Shown here one piece after another: positions 762-7,579 of a DNA stretch of 42,177 bases. Origin of the DNA: Acidobacteria bacterium 13_1_40CM_65_14 (GTDB taxonomy: Bacteria > Acidobacteriota > Vicinamibacteria > Vicinamibacterales > CAVVIG01); contig MNEX01000041.1 in the NCBI GenBank assembly GCA_001917905.1, positions 1-42,177 on the forward strand, read 5' to 3'. The notes under the pieces are model-generated. The model did not search any database, was not told the origin of the DNA, and saw only the letters and a list, made by a program, of their open reading frames with translations. The position numbers and the translations under genes were made by a program. Every line of letters starts with the position of its first letter. Position 1 is the stretch's first letter.

Positions 762-2441
762 TCAATTTGTGGACAGTGCGTCAGACCAGAGGATCTGGTC
801 GGACCAGAGGATCTGATCGGACCAAAGGATCTGATCGGACCAGAGAATCTGGTCGGACCAAAGAATCTGGTCGGACCAAAGGATCTGGTCGGACCAGAGG
901 ATCTGGTCGGACCAGAGGATCTGGTCGGACCAAAGGATTTGGTCGGACCAAAGGATCTGATCGGACCAGAGGATCTGGTTGGGCCTTGTCGCGTTTAACT
1001 GCCGAGCCGTGGCACTGATTAAACGTGAGCGGGCAGGGCCAGTCGCAAGGCCGCTAGCGACGACGTTCTCCTCCGCAATTTCTGTCGCGACGAGCTTGTT
1101 GTTATTGAGGAGTTCAACCGCCGCAAGCGCGTTGATTTCGCCCGCCCCACCTCCGACCAACCCCGCCGAGGGCATAAACGTGCTCGTTAACTGCAGAGCG
1201 GCTTTCGCGTCTGCAGGTTTCAGGTTGGGCCGCTGGTCGAGCAACAGTGCGACGGCACCGCTGACGACGCCGGCCGCCATGCTCGTGCCGGACAACTGCA
1301 TGTAGGCATTCGCCCCGACACCCGCGATGTGGCGTTCTGGGTAGGTCTTCGACAGATACGACTCGGAGGCCTCGGCCGATACGACGTGGCTGCCGGGTGC
1401 CGAGACGTCGGGCTTGAGGACGAGGTCGTAGCGGGTTGGACCCTTCGAACTGTAGGGCGCGAGCGTGTCGTCGGATCGCTCCGGCGTGCCGTGCGTGTCG
1501 ATCGCGCCGACGGTCAGCGCGTACGGGCTGTTGCCCGGCGTCGTGATTCCGCCGTACACCGACTTGCCCTCGACCGTCCGTCCGAGGTTCCCCGCCGCCA
1601 CGACGACGGTGATGCCCGCCTTCACCGCGCGCTCAACCGCTTCACACAACGGATCGTCACGATACGGCTGCAGCACCGGCGCGCCGATCGACAGGTTGAT
1701 GACGCGGACCTTGAATTCCTCGCGATGCTCAATCGTCCAGTCGATCGCCTCGATCACATCGCTCGCCATCCCCGACCCCTCGTCGCCCAGCACGCGCAGG
1801 TTGAGGAGGTACGCGCCCGATGCAATACCGCGATAGTCGCGCGTCTCGGCCGTTCGTCCACGCCCGCCGGCGATGATCCCCGCGACGTGCGTGCCGTGGC
1901 CGAAGCGGTCGACGCCGTCGCCACCGGTGAAGTCGTGCGTCGCGATCACGCGCTCCCGCAGGAACGCGTTGTGGCGCGTGTCGATCCCGGAATCGATCAC
2001 CGCGACGGCGACGCCGCTTCCGGTGAGCGGCGCCACGTCGTCGGAGCCGGCCCACACCTGATCGGCGCCGATCGCTTCGGCCGTGACGTCAGCGATCGAG
2101 CGGATCTTGATGTCACCCGAGAGATGATCTTGCGTGTCGTCGCGCCGCAGCGCGTCGAGCTGACCGGCGTTGACCGTCAGCACCGCGCCTTCCTTCAGCG
2201 ATTTCTTGACGCGAATGTTGTAGCGCCTGGCGAGCGCGGCCACTGACGCGCCGTCCCCATGGACGATCACATCGATAGACTGCGATCCGGCGTTGAGGTG
2301 ATCCGCGAGATCTGCGCTGAGGCGTGCGTGATGCTGCGCAAACGCGGGCGCGGCCATCAAACACGTGGAGGCGGCGAAGGCTCCTGCGAAGACGCGCCGG
2401 CGTAGAGACAAGCTCATCCGATTGGTGACTTTGCGATCCAT
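762..2441 (-). CDS. Secreted subtilisin-family (S8) serine protease with C-terminal hexapeptide repeats
   Basis: 559 aa. A Sec signal peptide runs to about residue 35 (basic start, hydrophobic core, ending APAFA). The subtilase triad is complete: Asp150 in VAVIDSGID, His182 in FGHGTHVAG, Ser387 in LSGTSMA, with oxyanion Asn285 in AAGN. Residues about 36-120 look like an I9-type prodomain. After the catalytic domain (to about 445) and a short linker, residues 489-554 are eleven perfect QILWSD hexapeptides, followed by five residues. The start is ATG 2441; ATG 2417 (MSLSLRRR) is an alternative that keeps the signal. The gene lies 22 bp downstream of the small HTH gene, likely one transcript. 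The repeat tail may be a surface anchor or a self-assembling strand; its role is unknown. Confidence 0.93.
   Translation of the reverse strand: MDRKVTNRMSLSLRRRVFAGAFAASTCLMAAPAFAQHHARLSADLADHLNAGSQSIDVIVHGDGASVAALARRYNIRVKKSLKEGAVLTVNAGQLDALRRDDTQDHLSGDIKIRSIADVTAEAIGADQVWAGSDDVAPLTGSGVAVAVIDSGIDTRHNAFLRERVIATHDFTGGDGVDRFGHGTHVAGIIAGGRGRTAETRDYRGIASGAYLLNLRVLGDEGSGMASDVIEAIDWTIEHREEFKVRVINLSIGAPVLQPYRDDPLCEAVERAVKAGITVVVAAGNLGRTVEGKSVYGGITTPGNSPYALTVGAIDTHGTPERSDDTLAPYSSKGPTRYDLVLKPDVSAPGSHVVSAEASESYLSKTYPERHIAGVGANAYMQLSGTSMAAGVVSGAVALLLDQRPNLKPADAKAALQLTSTFMPSAGLVGGGAGEINALAAVELLNNNKLVATEIAEENVVASGLATGPARSRLISATARQLNATRPNQILWSDQILWSDQILWSDQILWSDQILWSDQILWSDQILWSDQILWSDQILWSDQILWSDQILWSDALSTN
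785..982 (-). repeat. 18-bp tandem repeat, 11 units, coding for QILWSD
   Basis: Eleven consecutive 18-bp units encode (SDQILW)n at the C-terminus of the subtilase. Units differ at only three or four positions. All changes seen are synonymous (ATC/ATT for Ile, CTC/TTC-type wobble in Leu/Gln/Asp codons), so the amino-acid sequence is invariant while the DNA drifts. This indicates selection on the peptide rather than a very recent expansion. Confidence 0.95.
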
Positions 2442-2463: not shown

Positions 2464-2724
2464 CTAGAAAGAGGACCGTCGAGCAACCGCTGCGCCAGGG
2501 TTGTCCGATCGTAAGGCGTTGACGTCGTGCTCCCGTGTTTCTGACATCGAGTCGACAAGCACGCGCTGCGAGCCCCCGATGGTTCGGATGGTCTGGAGCC
2601 GCCCTTCGCGGATCCGGTTATAGATGGTTCGCCGCGAGACACCGAGCAGCTCAGCGGCATGGTCCAGCGAAACGCTGCGACCGATACGAGGTTCAAAGCC
2701 GTTCACAGGCGCTGGCATCGTCAT
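2464..2724 (-). CDS. Small excisionase/MerR-type helix-turn-helix DNA-binding protein
   Basis: 86 aa from ATG 2724, preceded by GGAGG six bases upstream; a TTG one codon earlier is less likely. The core SLDHAAELLGVSRRTIYNRI followed by REGRLQTIRTIGGSQRVLV is the winged HTH of the excisionase/MerR-like HTH_17 family: recognition helix about residues 27-40, then the beta-hairpin wing with the typical basic-Gly pattern. No enzymatic domain follows. It is the upstream gene of the subtilase, so it probably regulates that pair or an unlinked locus. The last 30 residues are low in recognisable features. Confidence 0.82.
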   Translation of the reverse strand: MTMPAPVNGFEPRIGRSVSLDHAAELLGVSRRTIYNRIREGRLQTIRTIGGSQRVLVDSMSETREHDVNALRSDNPGAAVARRSSF

Positions 2725-3007
2725 CAATGTCCTCCGGAACGGCTATCTATAGCGCACGTACGGTGCCCGAACCTCGGCCGCCGGAACATGAAGCAGGTTG
2801 TGAGCCCTAAGTGGTTGGCACCCAGAGAGTTGCTGTTCTTGGAGGGATCAGGATGTTGACAAGCGCGACGCCTTCAGTACGGCCAAAAATCTGGCCAGCA
2901 AATGTGCTATTTGTAGAAAACCCAGCGATTTTGCACGGACAATCGCCTGCGATGGCCGAGTTGCGCCCAATTTTGATCGGTCAGTTTGTTGGCCAGCGAG
3001 TCAGTTT
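2725..3007. other. Divergent intergenic region, comparatively AT-rich
   Basis: About 280 bp separate the HTH gene (-) from the substrate-binding protein (+). It contains short dyads (GGCCA-N6-TGGCC near 2880-2895; CGGTCA and TGACCG around 2978-3014) and a direct repeat of GTCAGTTT 20 bp apart just before the downstream start. These could be operators. No clear sigma-70 or sigma-54 promoter could be assigned. Confidence 0.35.
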
Positions 3008-4732
3008 TTGACCGGACAATCGCGCAACATTGCGGTCATCATCGCCATCGTCGCCGCGATGGCGGCCGGGTGCCGGTCCGGCCCGAGCCCCGAGGCGCCA
3101 GCTTCGACCGCCGGTCTCCATCGTGGTGGCGAGATCGTGGCCTCCGTTCGCAGCGAGCCCCGGAGCTTCAACCGTCTCGCGGCGCGCGATACGACCACCG
3201 TGCTCGTCGCGACGCTCACGCAAGCCAAGCTGGTCCGAGTCAATCAAGCGACACAGGAGGTCGAACCCTGGCTCGCCGAAAGCTGGACCGCGTCGCCTGA
3301 CGCGCGTGGCGTCACGCTCAAGCTCCGGCGCGACGTCGTCTTCTCTGACGGCCATCCATTCACCGCCGACGATGTCGTGTTCACGTTTGATGCGGCGTAC
3401 GACGGGCAGACGCACGGCGGCGTCGGCGACTCGCTGCGCGTCGCCGGGAAGAAGCTGAAGGTCGTCGCCACCGATCCACAGACGGTCACGGTCACGTTTC
3501 CTGAACCGTTTGCCGCAGGCGTGCGCCTGCTCGACAACTTGCCGATGCTGCCGCGCCATAAGCTCGAGGCGGCGTTGAAGAGCGGGACGTTCTCGAGCGC
3601 GTGGGGCCTGTCGACACCGTTGTCCGAGATCGTGGCTCTCGGTCCGTTCGTGGTCGCGCGCTACGAACCGGGGCAGCGCGTGGTGTTCGATCGCAACCCG
3701 CACTACTTCCGCAAGGCGGCGGATGGCGGCGCGCTGCCGTACGTCGATCGCGTGACCATCGACATCATTCCGGATCAGAACGCAGAGATGTTGCGGCTCG
3801 AGGCCGGCCAGATCGACACGATGACCAGCGAGATCGCGCCGGAGGCGTACGCGCCGCTCAAACGCGCGGCGGACGCCGGTCGCGTGCAGCTGCTGGATCT
3901 CGGCGGCGGCTACAACGCCAATGCGTTGTGGTTCAACCTCAAGCCGGGCGCGATCGCCGACCGCGATCGGGCGCGCTGGCTGCAGCGCGACGAGCTTCGC
4001 CGAGCCATCTCCATGGCGGTCGATCGCCAACAGTACGTGGACACGGTGTTCTTCGGTGCAGGCGTGCCGGTCTATGGTCCGGAAACGCCGGCGAACAAGC
4101 AGTGGTACTGGGCCGGCGAACCGAAGACCCCACACGATCCGGCGGGCGCGACGCAGCTGCTCGCGTCGATCGGCCTGGCCGATCGCAACGGCGACGGCGT
4201 GCTCGAAGACGCCCGCAATCAGCCGGCGCGGTTCACCTTGCTGACGCAGAAGGGACGGCCCGACCTCGAGCGCGGCGCGACCGTCATCCGCGACGAGCTG
4301 AAGAAGATCGGCGTCATCGTCGACGTGGCGGCGCTCGATTCCGGTGCCGTCATCCAGGGGTTTCTGACGGCGCAGTATGACGCCGTGTTCTTCAACCCGG
4401 ACAAAACCGCCCTCGATCCCGCGCTCAACCTGGACTTCTGGCGCAGCTCCGGATCGGCGCACATGTGGAACATGAACCAGACCGCGCCGGCGACCGACTG
4501 GGAACGGCGGATCGATGAGCTGATGGACCGCCAGACAGCGGCGACCGATCCGCGCGAGCGCAAAGCGCTGTACGACGAGGTGCAGAAGATTTTCTCCGAG
4601 CACCTGCCGATTCTGTACTTCGCGGCGCCGCGAATCTACGTGGCGGCTTCGTGGCGCCTCACCAATCTCACGCCCGCGGTGTGGAGGCCGCAGCTCCTGT
4701 GGTCGGCCGACACGATCGCCGTGGCGCGGTGA
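3008..4732 (+). CDS. ABC transporter periplasmic substrate-binding lipoprotein (SBP_bac_5, peptide/oligopeptide type)
   Basis: 574 aa. TTG 3008 is the only start that keeps the signal sequence: MTGQSRNIAVIIAIVAAMAAGC, with lipobox AAGC at Cys22, hence a membrane-anchored lipoprotein. The body is a full-length DppA/OppA-type binding protein: EPRSFNRLAARDTTT near the N-terminus, the family signature around VVFSDGHPFTADDVVFTFDAAYD, DRNPHYF, and the conserved C-terminal ILYFAAPRIYVA. It probably binds a peptide or similar small solute and delivers it to the permeases encoded 28 bp downstream. No ligand can be read from sequence. The TTG start with no strong Shine-Dalgarno sequence suggests low expression. 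Confidence 0.9.
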   Translation: MTGQSRNIAVIIAIVAAMAAGCRSGPSPEAPASTAGLHRGGEIVASVRSEPRSFNRLAARDTTTVLVATLTQAKLVRVNQATQEVEPWLAESWTASPDARGVTLKLRRDVVFSDGHPFTADDVVFTFDAAYDGQTHGGVGDSLRVAGKKLKVVATDPQTVTVTFPEPFAAGVRLLDNLPMLPRHKLEAALKSGTFSSAWGLSTPLSEIVALGPFVVARYEPGQRVVFDRNPHYFRKAADGGALPYVDRVTIDIIPDQNAEMLRLEAGQIDTMTSEIAPEAYAPLKRAADAGRVQLLDLGGGYNANALWFNLKPGAIADRDRARWLQRDELRRAISMAVDRQQYVDTVFFGAGVPVYGPETPANKQWYWAGEPKTPHDPAGATQLLASIGLADRNGDGVLEDARNQPARFTLLTQKGRPDLERGATVIRDELKKIGVIVDVAALDSGAVIQGFLTAQYDAVFFNPDKTALDPALNLDFWRSSGSAHMWNMNQTAPATDWERRIDELMDRQTAATDPRERKALYDEVQKIFSEHLPILYFAAPRIYVAASWRLTNLTPAVWRPQLLWSADTIAVAR

Positions 4733-4760
4733 CGCCCGACCGCGAACGTCACTGACGAGC

Positions 4761-5711
4761 ATGGCGCGTTACATCGCGCGGCGACTGGTGTTCGCGGCGT
4801 TCTTAATCGTCGCCGTGTCGTCGCTGTCCCTCGTGCTCACGCGGCTCGCGCCCGGCGACTTCACGACAGAAGCGCTGGGCCTGGACGCGCGGCGCGAAAC
4901 CGTGGAACAGATGCGCGCGCGCTTCGGACTGAACAAATCAATTGCCGCGCAGTACGGCGACTGGCTGGCCGCTGTGGCGCGCCTGGACTTCGGACGCTCG
5001 CTGCTCTACGACCGCCCGGTCAAGGATCTCATCCCCGAACGCGCTGCGAACACGGCGATCCTGGCGGTCACGGCGCTGGCGGTCGCGACGCTCCTTGGTC
5101 TGCCGCTCGGCATCGTCACGGGCAGCCGGCGCGGCGGCGTCATTCCCACAGTGATTCGATCGGCGTCGCTGGTGCTGCTCTCGATGCCGCCGCTGTTGAC
5201 GTCACTCTTTCTCGTGTTTCTCGCGGCGCGCACCGGATGGCTTCCGATCGCCGGCATGCGATCGGCCGCTGTACCGGAAGGCGGCGCGACGGTCGATCTG
5301 TTGCGTCACCTGATCGTTCCTGCAGCCGCCATCGGGCTGCCGCTGGCGGCGATGCTCGAACGGCTGCAGGCGCAGGCCATGAGCGAAGTGGTCGGCGAAC
5401 CGTTCGTTCTCGCCGCGTTCGCGCGCGGCGTGCCGCGATCGCGCGTCGTGTGGCGCGATGCGTTGAAGCCGGCGCTCAAACCAGTGGCGTCGGTGTACGG
5501 CCTGATGGTCGGCACGCTGCTCAGCGGATCGTTCGCGGTCGAAGTGATTACCGCCTGGCCAGGTCTTGGACGGTTGATGCTCGACGCGCTGCGCGCGCGC
5601 GACGTGTACCTCGTCGCCGGCTGCGCCGGAGCGGGCGCGATCTTCCTCGCGTTCGGCACGCTTCTCTCCGACATCGCGCTCGCCCTGGTGGATCCCCGTG
5701 CGCGTGAGTAG
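4761..5711 (+). CDS. ABC transporter permease, DppB/OppB family
   Basis: 316 aa inner-membrane permease. It starts MARYIARRLVFAAFLIV, the standard DppB N-terminal helix, followed by the periplasmic segment (FGLNKSIAAQYGDWL, LDFGRSLLYDRPV) and five more membrane spans. The EAA cytoplasmic loop that docks to the ATPase is near residues 215-240 (FARGVPRSRVVWRDALKPAL). Length is normal for the family. It forms the heterodimeric pore with the next gene, which overlaps its 3' end by 14 bp. Confidence 0.93.
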   Translation: MARYIARRLVFAAFLIVAVSSLSLVLTRLAPGDFTTEALGLDARRETVEQMRARFGLNKSIAAQYGDWLAAVARLDFGRSLLYDRPVKDLIPERAANTAILAVTALAVATLLGLPLGIVTGSRRGGVIPTVIRSASLVLLSMPPLLTSLFLVFLAARTGWLPIAGMRSAAVPEGGATVDLLRHLIVPAAAIGLPLAAMLERLQAQAMSEVVGEPFVLAAFARGVPRSRVVWRDALKPALKPVASVYGLMVGTLLSGSFAVEVITAWPGLGRLMLDALRARDVYLVAGCAGAGAIFLAFGTLLSDIALALVDPRARE

Positions 5712-6732
5712 CCGCCGGGCGGGATTGACGCTGGTGGCGTGCGCGGCGTTGGCCGCAGCGGCCGCGCCGACGGTTGCGCCACATACCACGGACACGCGCT
5801 TCGCTCGCCTACTGAGCGCGCCGCCCACACTTCCGCACGTGCGAGACGACGAAGGTGTCTGGCACGCGCCATTCATCCATCCCTGGCGGCTCGTGAATCA
5901 GTTGGAACAGCGGTACGAACAGGATCGATCCGCCCGCGTGCCGCTGGCGTGGCTCACGGACGGCCGTCTCGTCGTCTCGTCCGACGATACGCAGGCGCCG
6001 CTGTTGTGGCTCGGAACGGACAGCTTCGGCCGCGATGTGTTCAGCCGGCTCGTGTTCGGCGGACGGGTCTCGCTTGGCCTCGCGATGGCCGCGGCGCTGG
6101 GCGCGCTCCTCGTTGGCGCGACGCTCGGCGGCATTGCCGGCTACGCCGGCGGCACGCTCGACGACGTGCTGATGCGCGCCGCCGACTTCGTCATGGTGCT
6201 GCCGGCCATGTACGTCGCGCTCGCACTGCGCGCGGTCCTTCCGCTCGTGCTCCCCGCGCACATCGTCTTCATTCTGCTCGCGAGCATTTTCGCGATTGTC
6301 GGGGCGCCCTTCATCGCCCGCGGCGTCCGCGCCATCGTCCAGGCCGAGCGGCGGCTCGATTACGCCGTCGCTGCGCAAAGCCTTGGCGCGAGCGCGGGGC
6401 GCGTGCTCACGCGGCATCTGCTGCCGGCAGCGCGCGGCTTCATCGTGGTCGAGATCACGATGCTGATTCCCGCGTTCATCATCGCCGAGGCCACGCTGTC
6501 GTTTGTCGGGCTCGGCTTTCCCGATCCGACGGCGAGCTGGGGCACGATGCTGCACGACGCGTCCAGCGTTCGGGCGTTCGCGGATTTCCCGTGGCTCCTC
6601 AGTCCGGCGGCCGCGATCTTCCTCGTGGTCCTCGGCCTCAATCTCGTGTTCCAGCCGTCAGGCGTGGGCGTCGTCTACAATGAACCCGATGAAACTGGCA
6701 GGCGTCTTCGCACCGATTCCCACGCCATTTGA
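5698..6732 (+). CDS. ABC transporter permease, DppC/OppC family
   Basis: 344 aa. GTG 5698 (or GTG 5704) overlaps the dppB-like stop, implying translational coupling. One N-terminal membrane segment is followed by an unusually long periplasmic stretch to about residue 100. The DppC hallmark follows (GTDSFGRDVFSRLVFGGR), then five helices. The EAA loop is AQSLGASAGRVLTRHLLPAA, followed by EATLSFVGLGFPDPTASWG. No ATP-binding DppD/DppF genes follow, so the ATPases must be encoded elsewhere. Its 3' end overlaps the dapA-like gene. Confidence 0.92.
   Translation: MRVSSRRAGLTLVACAALAAAAAPTVAPHTTDTRFARLLSAPPTLPHVRDDEGVWHAPFIHPWRLVNQLEQRYEQDRSARVPLAWLTDGRLVVSSDDTQAPLLWLGTDSFGRDVFSRLVFGGRVSLGLAMAAALGALLVGATLGGIAGYAGGTLDDVLMRAADFVMVLPAMYVALALRAVLPLVLPAHIVFILLASIFAIVGAPFIARGVRAIVQAERRLDYAVAAQSLGASAGRVLTRHLLPAARGFIVVEITMLIPAFIIAEATLSFVGLGFPDPTASWGTMLHDASSVRAFADFPWLLSPAAAIFLVVLGLNLVFQPSGVGVVYNEPDETGRRLRTDSHAI
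6676..6681 (+). promoter_or_regulatory. Candidate -10 box for leaderless dapA-like mRNA
   Basis: TACAAT lies seven bases before ATG 6689, inside the 3' end of the permease gene. The spacing places the transcription start at or next to the start codon. No good -35 is visible. This supports MKLAGVF as the true N-terminus over the upstream in-frame ATG at 6680, which overlaps the box itself. Confidence 0.5.
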
Positions 6733-7579
6733 CCGCGACGACCAGGTCGACACGACGCGGCTGCGCGCCGCGCTCTCGCGCTGGATCGCACGTCCGCTCA
6801 CAGGCTTCATCGTCCTCGGCTCGAACGGCGAAGCGGTGCTCATGGACGATTTCGAAGCTGATCGTGTGATCGTCGCCGCACGCGAAGTCGTCCCGAGTGG
6901 CCGCCCGTTCATCGTCGGCACGGGACGAGAATCGACGCAAGCCGCCATCCGCGCATGCAAGCGCGCGGCGGAGCACGGCGCGGACGCGGTCCTGGTGCGG
7001 ACGCCAGGTTTCTTCAAGAGTCAGATGACATCGGACGTGTTCGTGCGGCATTACACCGCGGTGGCCGATGCGTCGCCCGTGCCGGTGCTCCTGTACAACT
7101 TCACGGCGCTCACCGGCGTGAATCTGCTGCCCGCCGCCGTCTCGCGATTGGCGACGCATCCGAACATCGCCGGCATGAAAGAATCTGGCGGCGACGTCGC
7201 GCAGATCGCGGATCTCGTGTCGGGATCGCCCGGCGATTTCCAGGTGTTGGCCGGCACGACGTCGACGTTCTATGCGGCGTTGTGCGTCGGCGCCGCCGGC
7301 GGCATTCTGGCGCCGGCGTGCGTCGTGCCCGACGCGTGCATGCGGTTGTTCGAGCTCACACGTGACGGCCGACACGCTGAAGCGATGATGCTGCAGCGTC
7401 AGCTCGTTCCGTTGGCGCGCCTTCTGGGTCCGACCTACGGCGTACCCGGTCTGAAAGCGGCGCTCAACCTGATTGGCTATGACGTCGGCATCCCGCGGCC
7501 TCCGCTCGCACCGCTGCCGGACACCGCCGTCACGCAACTGCGCGACGCGCTCGCGCAATTCGAGGAAATTCCAGCGTGA
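6689..7579 (+). CDS. Dihydrodipicolinate synthase/N-acetylneuraminate lyase (DapA) family protein
   Basis: 296 aa, normal for this TIM-barrel class I aldolase family. It begins MKLAGVFAPIPTPF as DapA-family members do. The substrate-loop motif is GSNGE (GTTGE in DapA). The catalytic Tyr is in LYNFTALTG and the Schiff-base Lys in AGMKESGGD. Replacement of GTTGE by GSNGE and the rest of the barrel look more like 4-hydroxy-2-oxoglutarate aldolase or another keto-acid lyase than true DapA, so a dap symbol is not justified. It sits directly after the transporter permeases, hinting at breakdown of an imported compound (inference). Confidence 0.88.
   Translation: MKLAGVFAPIPTPFDRDDQVDTTRLRAALSRWIARPLTGFIVLGSNGEAVLMDDFEADRVIVAAREVVPSGRPFIVGTGRESTQAAIRACKRAAEHGADAVLVRTPGFFKSQMTSDVFVRHYTAVADASPVPVLLYNFTALTGVNLLPAAVSRLATHPNIAGMKESGGDVAQIADLVSGSPGDFQVLAGTTSTFYAALCVGAAGGILAPACVVPDACMRLFELTRDGRHAEAMMLQRQLVPLARLLGPTYGVPGLKAALNLIGYDVGIPRPPLAPLPDTAVTQLRDALAQFEEIPA

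Follow-up and report, generated by a model that had tools for sequence, protein, structure and literature searches.

Why would a bacterial protease end in one and the same tryptophan-containing hexapeptide, repeated eleven times without a single amino acid exchange? This question is raised by a subtilase gene in a contig of Acidobacteria bacterium 13_1_40CM_65_14 (MNEX01000041.1), of which a stretch of 42,177 nucleotides, here called the window, was analyzed as a whole (Table 1). The protease domain matches PF00082 with an E-value of 2.6e-49 and 168.5 bits, compared to a gathering cut-off of 21.8, and the catalytic triad is complete, with D150, H182 and S387 lying within DSGID, HGTH and GTSMA and occupying invariant or near-invariant alignment columns, which bears out the subtilase identity that had been assigned from the sequence alone. 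The top structural match of the domain in Foldseek is Tk-SP (PDB 3afg, E 1.2e-31). As judged by eye, the N-terminus is a Sec-type signal peptide, and the gene encodes a secreted, probably active S8 subtilase with an intact triad. The protein stays under the cut-off for every named S8 subtype of NCBIfam; the highest-scoring subtype, the type VII secretion mycosin (TIGR03921), is rejected with 132.8 bits against an equivalog cut-off of 278.75.

Table 1. Features of the protease locus, with positions in the window.
Feature	Position	Strand	Basis and remarks
S8 subtilase gene	762..2441	-	ORF, 559 aa, ATG start; N-terminal signal-peptide-like stretch; C-terminal Trp-repeat tail
Tail of 11 perfect QILWSD units, 18 bp each, residues 489-554	780..977	-	Tandem Repeats Finder, translation
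Peptidase_S8 domain, residues 141-420	1182..2021	-	Pfam; AlphaFold mostly pLDDT >90; Foldseek
HTH_17 / excisionase-type small DNA-binding protein	2464..2727	-	PF12728 E 2.3e-8; TIGR01764; conserved neighbour
Divergent intergenic region; GGCCAA and GTGCANA conserved	2728..3007	.	8-mers common to 19 loci
Sigma54-like promoter core GGGCACCGTACGTGC, 5' of HTH-protease	2754..2768	-	19/19 syntenic loci vs 0.88 shuffled
Oligopeptide-type solute-binding protein (SBP_bac_5)	3008..4732	+	PF00496 E 2.9e-78; conserved divergent neighbour
ABC permease 1	4761..5711	+	PF00528 (BPD_transp_1) E 1.2e-26; conserved
ABC permease 2	5698..6732	+	PF00528 (BPD_transp_1) E 1.5e-18; conserved

The translation of the reading frame confirms the eleven perfect QILWSD copies at the end of the gene. 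The last unit is followed by ALSTN and the stop codon, and units and ALSTN together form the final 71 residues. Tandem Repeats Finder scores this array (period 18, 11.1 copies, score 316) as by far the strongest in the window. The units differ from each other at five of the 18 base positions, every one of them a third codon position, and all 12 DNA differences to the consensus unit are synonymous transitions. If changes were random, with a kappa of 4, about 23% of them would be expected to be synonymous; the probability that all are synonymous is then about 7e-4 when only the five distinct change types are taken as independent, and about 2e-8 when all 12 changes are so taken. In 54 tailed genes with six-spaced units, 774 synonymous differences stand against 610 nonsynonymous ones, giving a rate ratio of about 0.26, a count in which the invariance of Trp is by construction and not scorable for selection, since Trp itself defined each unit. 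The exclusively synonymous differences in the window array and the ratio over 54 genes thus argue for selection on the peptide, as the sequence-only reading had proposed from the wobble-only variation.

What appears to be selected is the Trp motif, but not the specific letters QILWSD. In a scan of GTDB genome contigs, which yielded about 20 Acidobacteriota relatives, all those with the C-terminus present finish in short Trp-motif arrays with other letters (SIFWGQ, TIIWAD, TTVWGD, TVVWGD, GIAWSD, GLVWSE, RIVWGN, TLVWDN, SIVWD, TIVWGT and others), so that the same gene does have unrelated tails in its relatives as far as letters are concerned, but not with respect to the motif. As orthologs carry other letters, QILWSD cannot be a conserved signature. 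The core common to the ortholog tails is [I/V]-[V/L/I]-W-[G/S/A]-[D/N/T], and a profile of 73 genes, including one (L024) that was later dropped as not being a tail, gives [TSNG]-[IV]-[VLI]-W-[GSA]-[DTN] around the Trp. In this set the genes have 3 to 32 motifs, and the final Trp usually lies within about 10 residues of the C-terminus; the longest array, on an S8 of genome G085 (L098), comprises 32 Trp motifs, with SALWSD/GALWSD as the unit type. The spacing is exactly six residues in 476 of about 740 cases, and the family of the window often shows spacings of 8-14. When the Trp is set aside, identity of the units at the five other positions is 0.74 within a gene versus 0.31 between genes. Orthologous protease domains are 55-71% identical, yet their tail letters are entirely different, which indicates a fast turnover of the arrays with retention of the core. 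Each array is homogenised inside its gene, with unequal exchange or slippage as the probable mechanism, and purifying selection preserves the Trp core; the array of perfect hexads appears to be a homogenised form specific to one lineage. A search for further QILWSD tails, as had been suggested, did find other S8s with these letters (L015 and G120/G249), but they are distant: the L015 S8 has a tree distance of 1.66, as compared to 0.46 between the window gene and the relative nearest to it. The letters have therefore converged, and by this measure QILWSD has arisen at least two times independently. In L015 (positions 4001-5695), the QILWSD and QILWTD arrays of this distant Acidobacteriota S8 are arranged in three blocks, and they appear to be convergent with the tail of the window protein.

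How far does the tail extend beyond this gene? We defined the subfamily by three or more [IVLMAFT]-x-W motifs C-terminal to the catalytic domain, and the window protein, with 11 motifs, belongs to these Trp-repeat-tailed S8s of Acidobacteriota. In 27 genomes of the GTDB family to which the window belongs, a protein search gave 106 S8 regions, and 73 of the 79 high-scoring S8s with complete C-terminus have three or more tail motifs. Three of the six exceptions are masked or apparently split frames (in one of these, G000:C14, the tail lies in a different frame), a fourth has two motifs, and the remaining two are seemingly tailless. Among 16 low-scoring S8s, only two reach three motifs, both long proteins without a terminal array, and this difference between high- and low-scoring S8s makes the tail a feature of the subfamily. 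In the window's genome there are five other clear tailed paralogs (C14, C24, C95, C104, C293) and a sixth (C189) that is truncated where its contig ends. When this genome was searched with a relaxed motif, clusters were detected on S8s only, and a general sorting signal for many proteins is thus unsupported. When the same 27 genomes were searched with a DNA pattern for hexad arrays, arrays were found in nine, and the inspected regions contain S8 genes or pieces of them, including one whose tail is severed by a contig end (L079).

In a phylum-wide draw, the DNA pattern matched 56 of 396 Acidobacteriota genomes, which for strict hexads is only an upper figure, as the pattern also matched 18 of 120 Pseudomonadota control genomes and by itself is therefore not specific; the Pseudomonadota matches listed are, by eye, simple GS-type or other low-complexity repeats, with no Trp tail among them. 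The 27 inspected loci of the phylum-wide draw comprise 22 S8s, recognized by motif or Pfam, three tails cut by contig ends, and two low-complexity repeat artefacts (L084, L105). With a somewhat looser pattern, 6 of 121 Chloroflexota genomes matched, of which only G416 was judged to have Trp hexads, and this genome also encodes tailed S8s (L020). The last bases of another locus of G416 (L194, G416:C743:15500-18157) contain a short ORF with a hydrophobic N-terminus followed by Trp hexads of the NVNWGGS type, and no S8 domain occurs in it before the contig end. An apparent occurrence in Actinomycetota (L012, from G417, titled Acidimicrobiia) was treated as mislabelled Acidobacteriota, because its genome shares the GTDB family with G558, in which a protein end matches that of L019, a record titled Sulfopaludibacter. 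We found no model for the Trp-repeat tail in Pfam and NCBIfam, and no description of it in literature on the motif strings and on repeat-bearing acidobacterial subtilases. The tail apparently is an undescribed element that is carried by nearly all proteases of one large Acidobacteriota S8 subfamily.

The genomic surroundings of the protease point to its physiological context. The locus is a conserved module whose synteny spans much of the Acidobacteriota. In all but a few flanked loci of the ortholog group, the HTH gene lies immediately 5' of the S8 gene, the exceptions including L171 and L174, in which the S8 is orthologous and HTH and transporter genes are absent from the available flanks. 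Within 140 bases 5' of the HTH gene, the sigma54-like core occurs in 19 of 19 loci versus 0.88 expected in shuffles, a contrast that is somewhat flattered by a pattern composed after viewing the sequences and by a few close pairs among the loci. The SBP side is a fairer control than shuffles, and there the identical pattern is found in 1 of 19 loci. This promoter core and the conserved position directly upstream associate the HTH gene with the protease, as the sequence-only reading had considered plausible, and we infer that the HTH protein regulates the protease. On the divergent side, the solute-binding protein and both permeases are kept beside the protease, with 42-57% identity in distant Acidobacteriota. 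ABC ATPase genes were not recognized by eye beside the permeases up to 14 kb and may be encoded elsewhere; in their place, a DHDPS-family gene (PF00701, positions 6503-7579) comes next after permease 2.

We propose, at a probability of about 0.4, that the Trp-repeat tail is a multivalent sticker for retention or assembly of the enzyme within a peptide-foraging module. The repeat core is a strand-prone stretch of four residues, x-[IV]-[VLI]-W, behind which come a small residue and then Asp, Asn or Thr. Such short Trp strands could associate among themselves or attach to a surface of the envelope or of a polymer, and the array of stickers would thereby hold the secreted protease near the cell, a multivalent attachment that we suggest by analogy. 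The protease would be expressed from a sigma54-type promoter with the aid of the HTH protein, and the divergently encoded oligopeptide-binding protein and permeases would take up the products of proteolysis. An invariant Trp core combined with variable letters, spacing and copy number is what would be expected of a sticker-and-spacer array. From the known roles of the families, the pairing of protease and importer and the sigma54-type promoter indicate nitrogen or peptide foraging, and we infer such a peptide-foraging role for the locus; the regulator and import neighbours suggest that the protease is kept near the cell for peptide harvest. Three observations count against this explanation, namely the low pLDDT (25-41) of the predicted tail, the lack of evident ABC ATPase genes next to the permeases and the location of many tailed paralogs outside the importer module.

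What else could the tail be? It could adopt a fold, either a beta-solenoid or a short-stranded meander, and as a domain stabilize or cap the protease instead of tethering it. The dominance of the six-residue spacing would fit such a fold, and so would the AlphaFold model from a tail-only alignment, which has two-residue bridges every six residues and for which the Foldseek matches, weak as they are, are mostly hexapeptide left-handed beta-helix proteins. However, this model has a pLDDT of only 41, and in the full-length prediction the tail is at about 25; no Foldseek match is significant (E >=0.23), so that this resemblance carries little weight for us, and the Pfam hexapeptide-repeat profile has no match within the tail. 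Many orthologs have spacings of 8-14, and stacked Trp residues would, in our reasoning, be bulky within a hexapeptide helix. As neither the full-length nor the tail-only model gives a confident fold, the earlier suggestion of a beta-helix finds no support in AlphaFold, and we regard a folded stabilizing or capping domain as possible but rather unlikely. It is more doubtful that the tail serves as a C-terminal propeptide or decoy substrate, filling the active site or being trimmed stepwise in maturation. A bulky hydrophobic residue at P1 with a small one at P1' is favourable for subtilases, and a Trp that follows two aliphatic residues and precedes Gly, Ser or Ala indeed resembles a subtilase cleavage site; also the near-confinement of the motif to S8 enzymes would agree with this function. 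The likely prodomain junction, however, has Met/Ile in the alignment, judged by eye, where the tail has Trp, and the tail is therefore not a copy of the self-cleavage site.

Even the contrasts between species could be functional if the tail were a tandem peptide precursor that the protease cuts after each Trp, in itself or in neighbouring copies, with numerous identical hexapeptides being released, taken up by the adjacent oligopeptide importer and sensed by the cell. The letters, which differ between species and are uniform within a gene, would then be species-specific pheromone types, but we consider this highly improbable. Least probable, and only barely worth considering, is a functionless neutral minisatellite expansion. 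An 18-bp tandem repeat that is homogenised within genes and whose letters change quickly between orthologs has the appearance of one, but neutrality conflicts with the solely synonymous differences in the window array, with the nonsynonymous/synonymous ratio over the 54 genes and with the phylum-wide retention of the Trp core despite the turnover of letters; a minisatellite without coding role is contradicted by the codon data.

Acidobacteriota are a major soil phylum, and tailed subtilases are abundant in them, with as many as 17 S8 matches per genome among those analyzed here and a tail motif that marks one whole subfamily throughout the phylum. Should the tail serve to retain or assemble the enzyme, this would explain how cells keep the gain from extracellular proteolysis. 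Moreover, the arrays of 3 to 32 copies represent a natural series of Trp-strand repeats, which offers material for studies of repeat evolution and of short-strand assembly.

Among known systems, RTX tails are likewise arrays of short repeats at the C-terminus of secreted proteases. The RTX repeat, however, is a Gly/Asp-rich GGxGxDxUx nonapeptide without obligate Trp, whereas the window tail is (QILWSD)11, and unlike RTX proteases the window protein shows, by eye, a Sec-type N-terminus and has no Pfam match in the tail; as GGxGxDxUx repeats are absent from the sequence, an RTX-tailed protease can be dismissed. The hexapeptide left-handed beta-helix proteins GlmU, LpxD and serine acetyltransferase share the six-residue period and the weak Foldseek resemblance, but the window tail has Trp at the core position, and the spacing in orthologs is variable. 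Thermococcus Tk-SP resembles the window protease in its catalytic domain, its triad and a prodomain-like N-terminal fold, but lacks a Trp-repeat tail. With regard to a possible assembly, the relevant comparison is Vpr of Bacillus (PDB 8jmw), an S8 peptidase that is enriched around the cells and whose extracellular fibrils are active (PMC10657474). No tandem Trp hexads were noted in Vpr in this comparison; as a secreted S8 enzyme, Vpr nevertheless sets a precedent for protease activity that is retained through self-assembly (PMC10657474).
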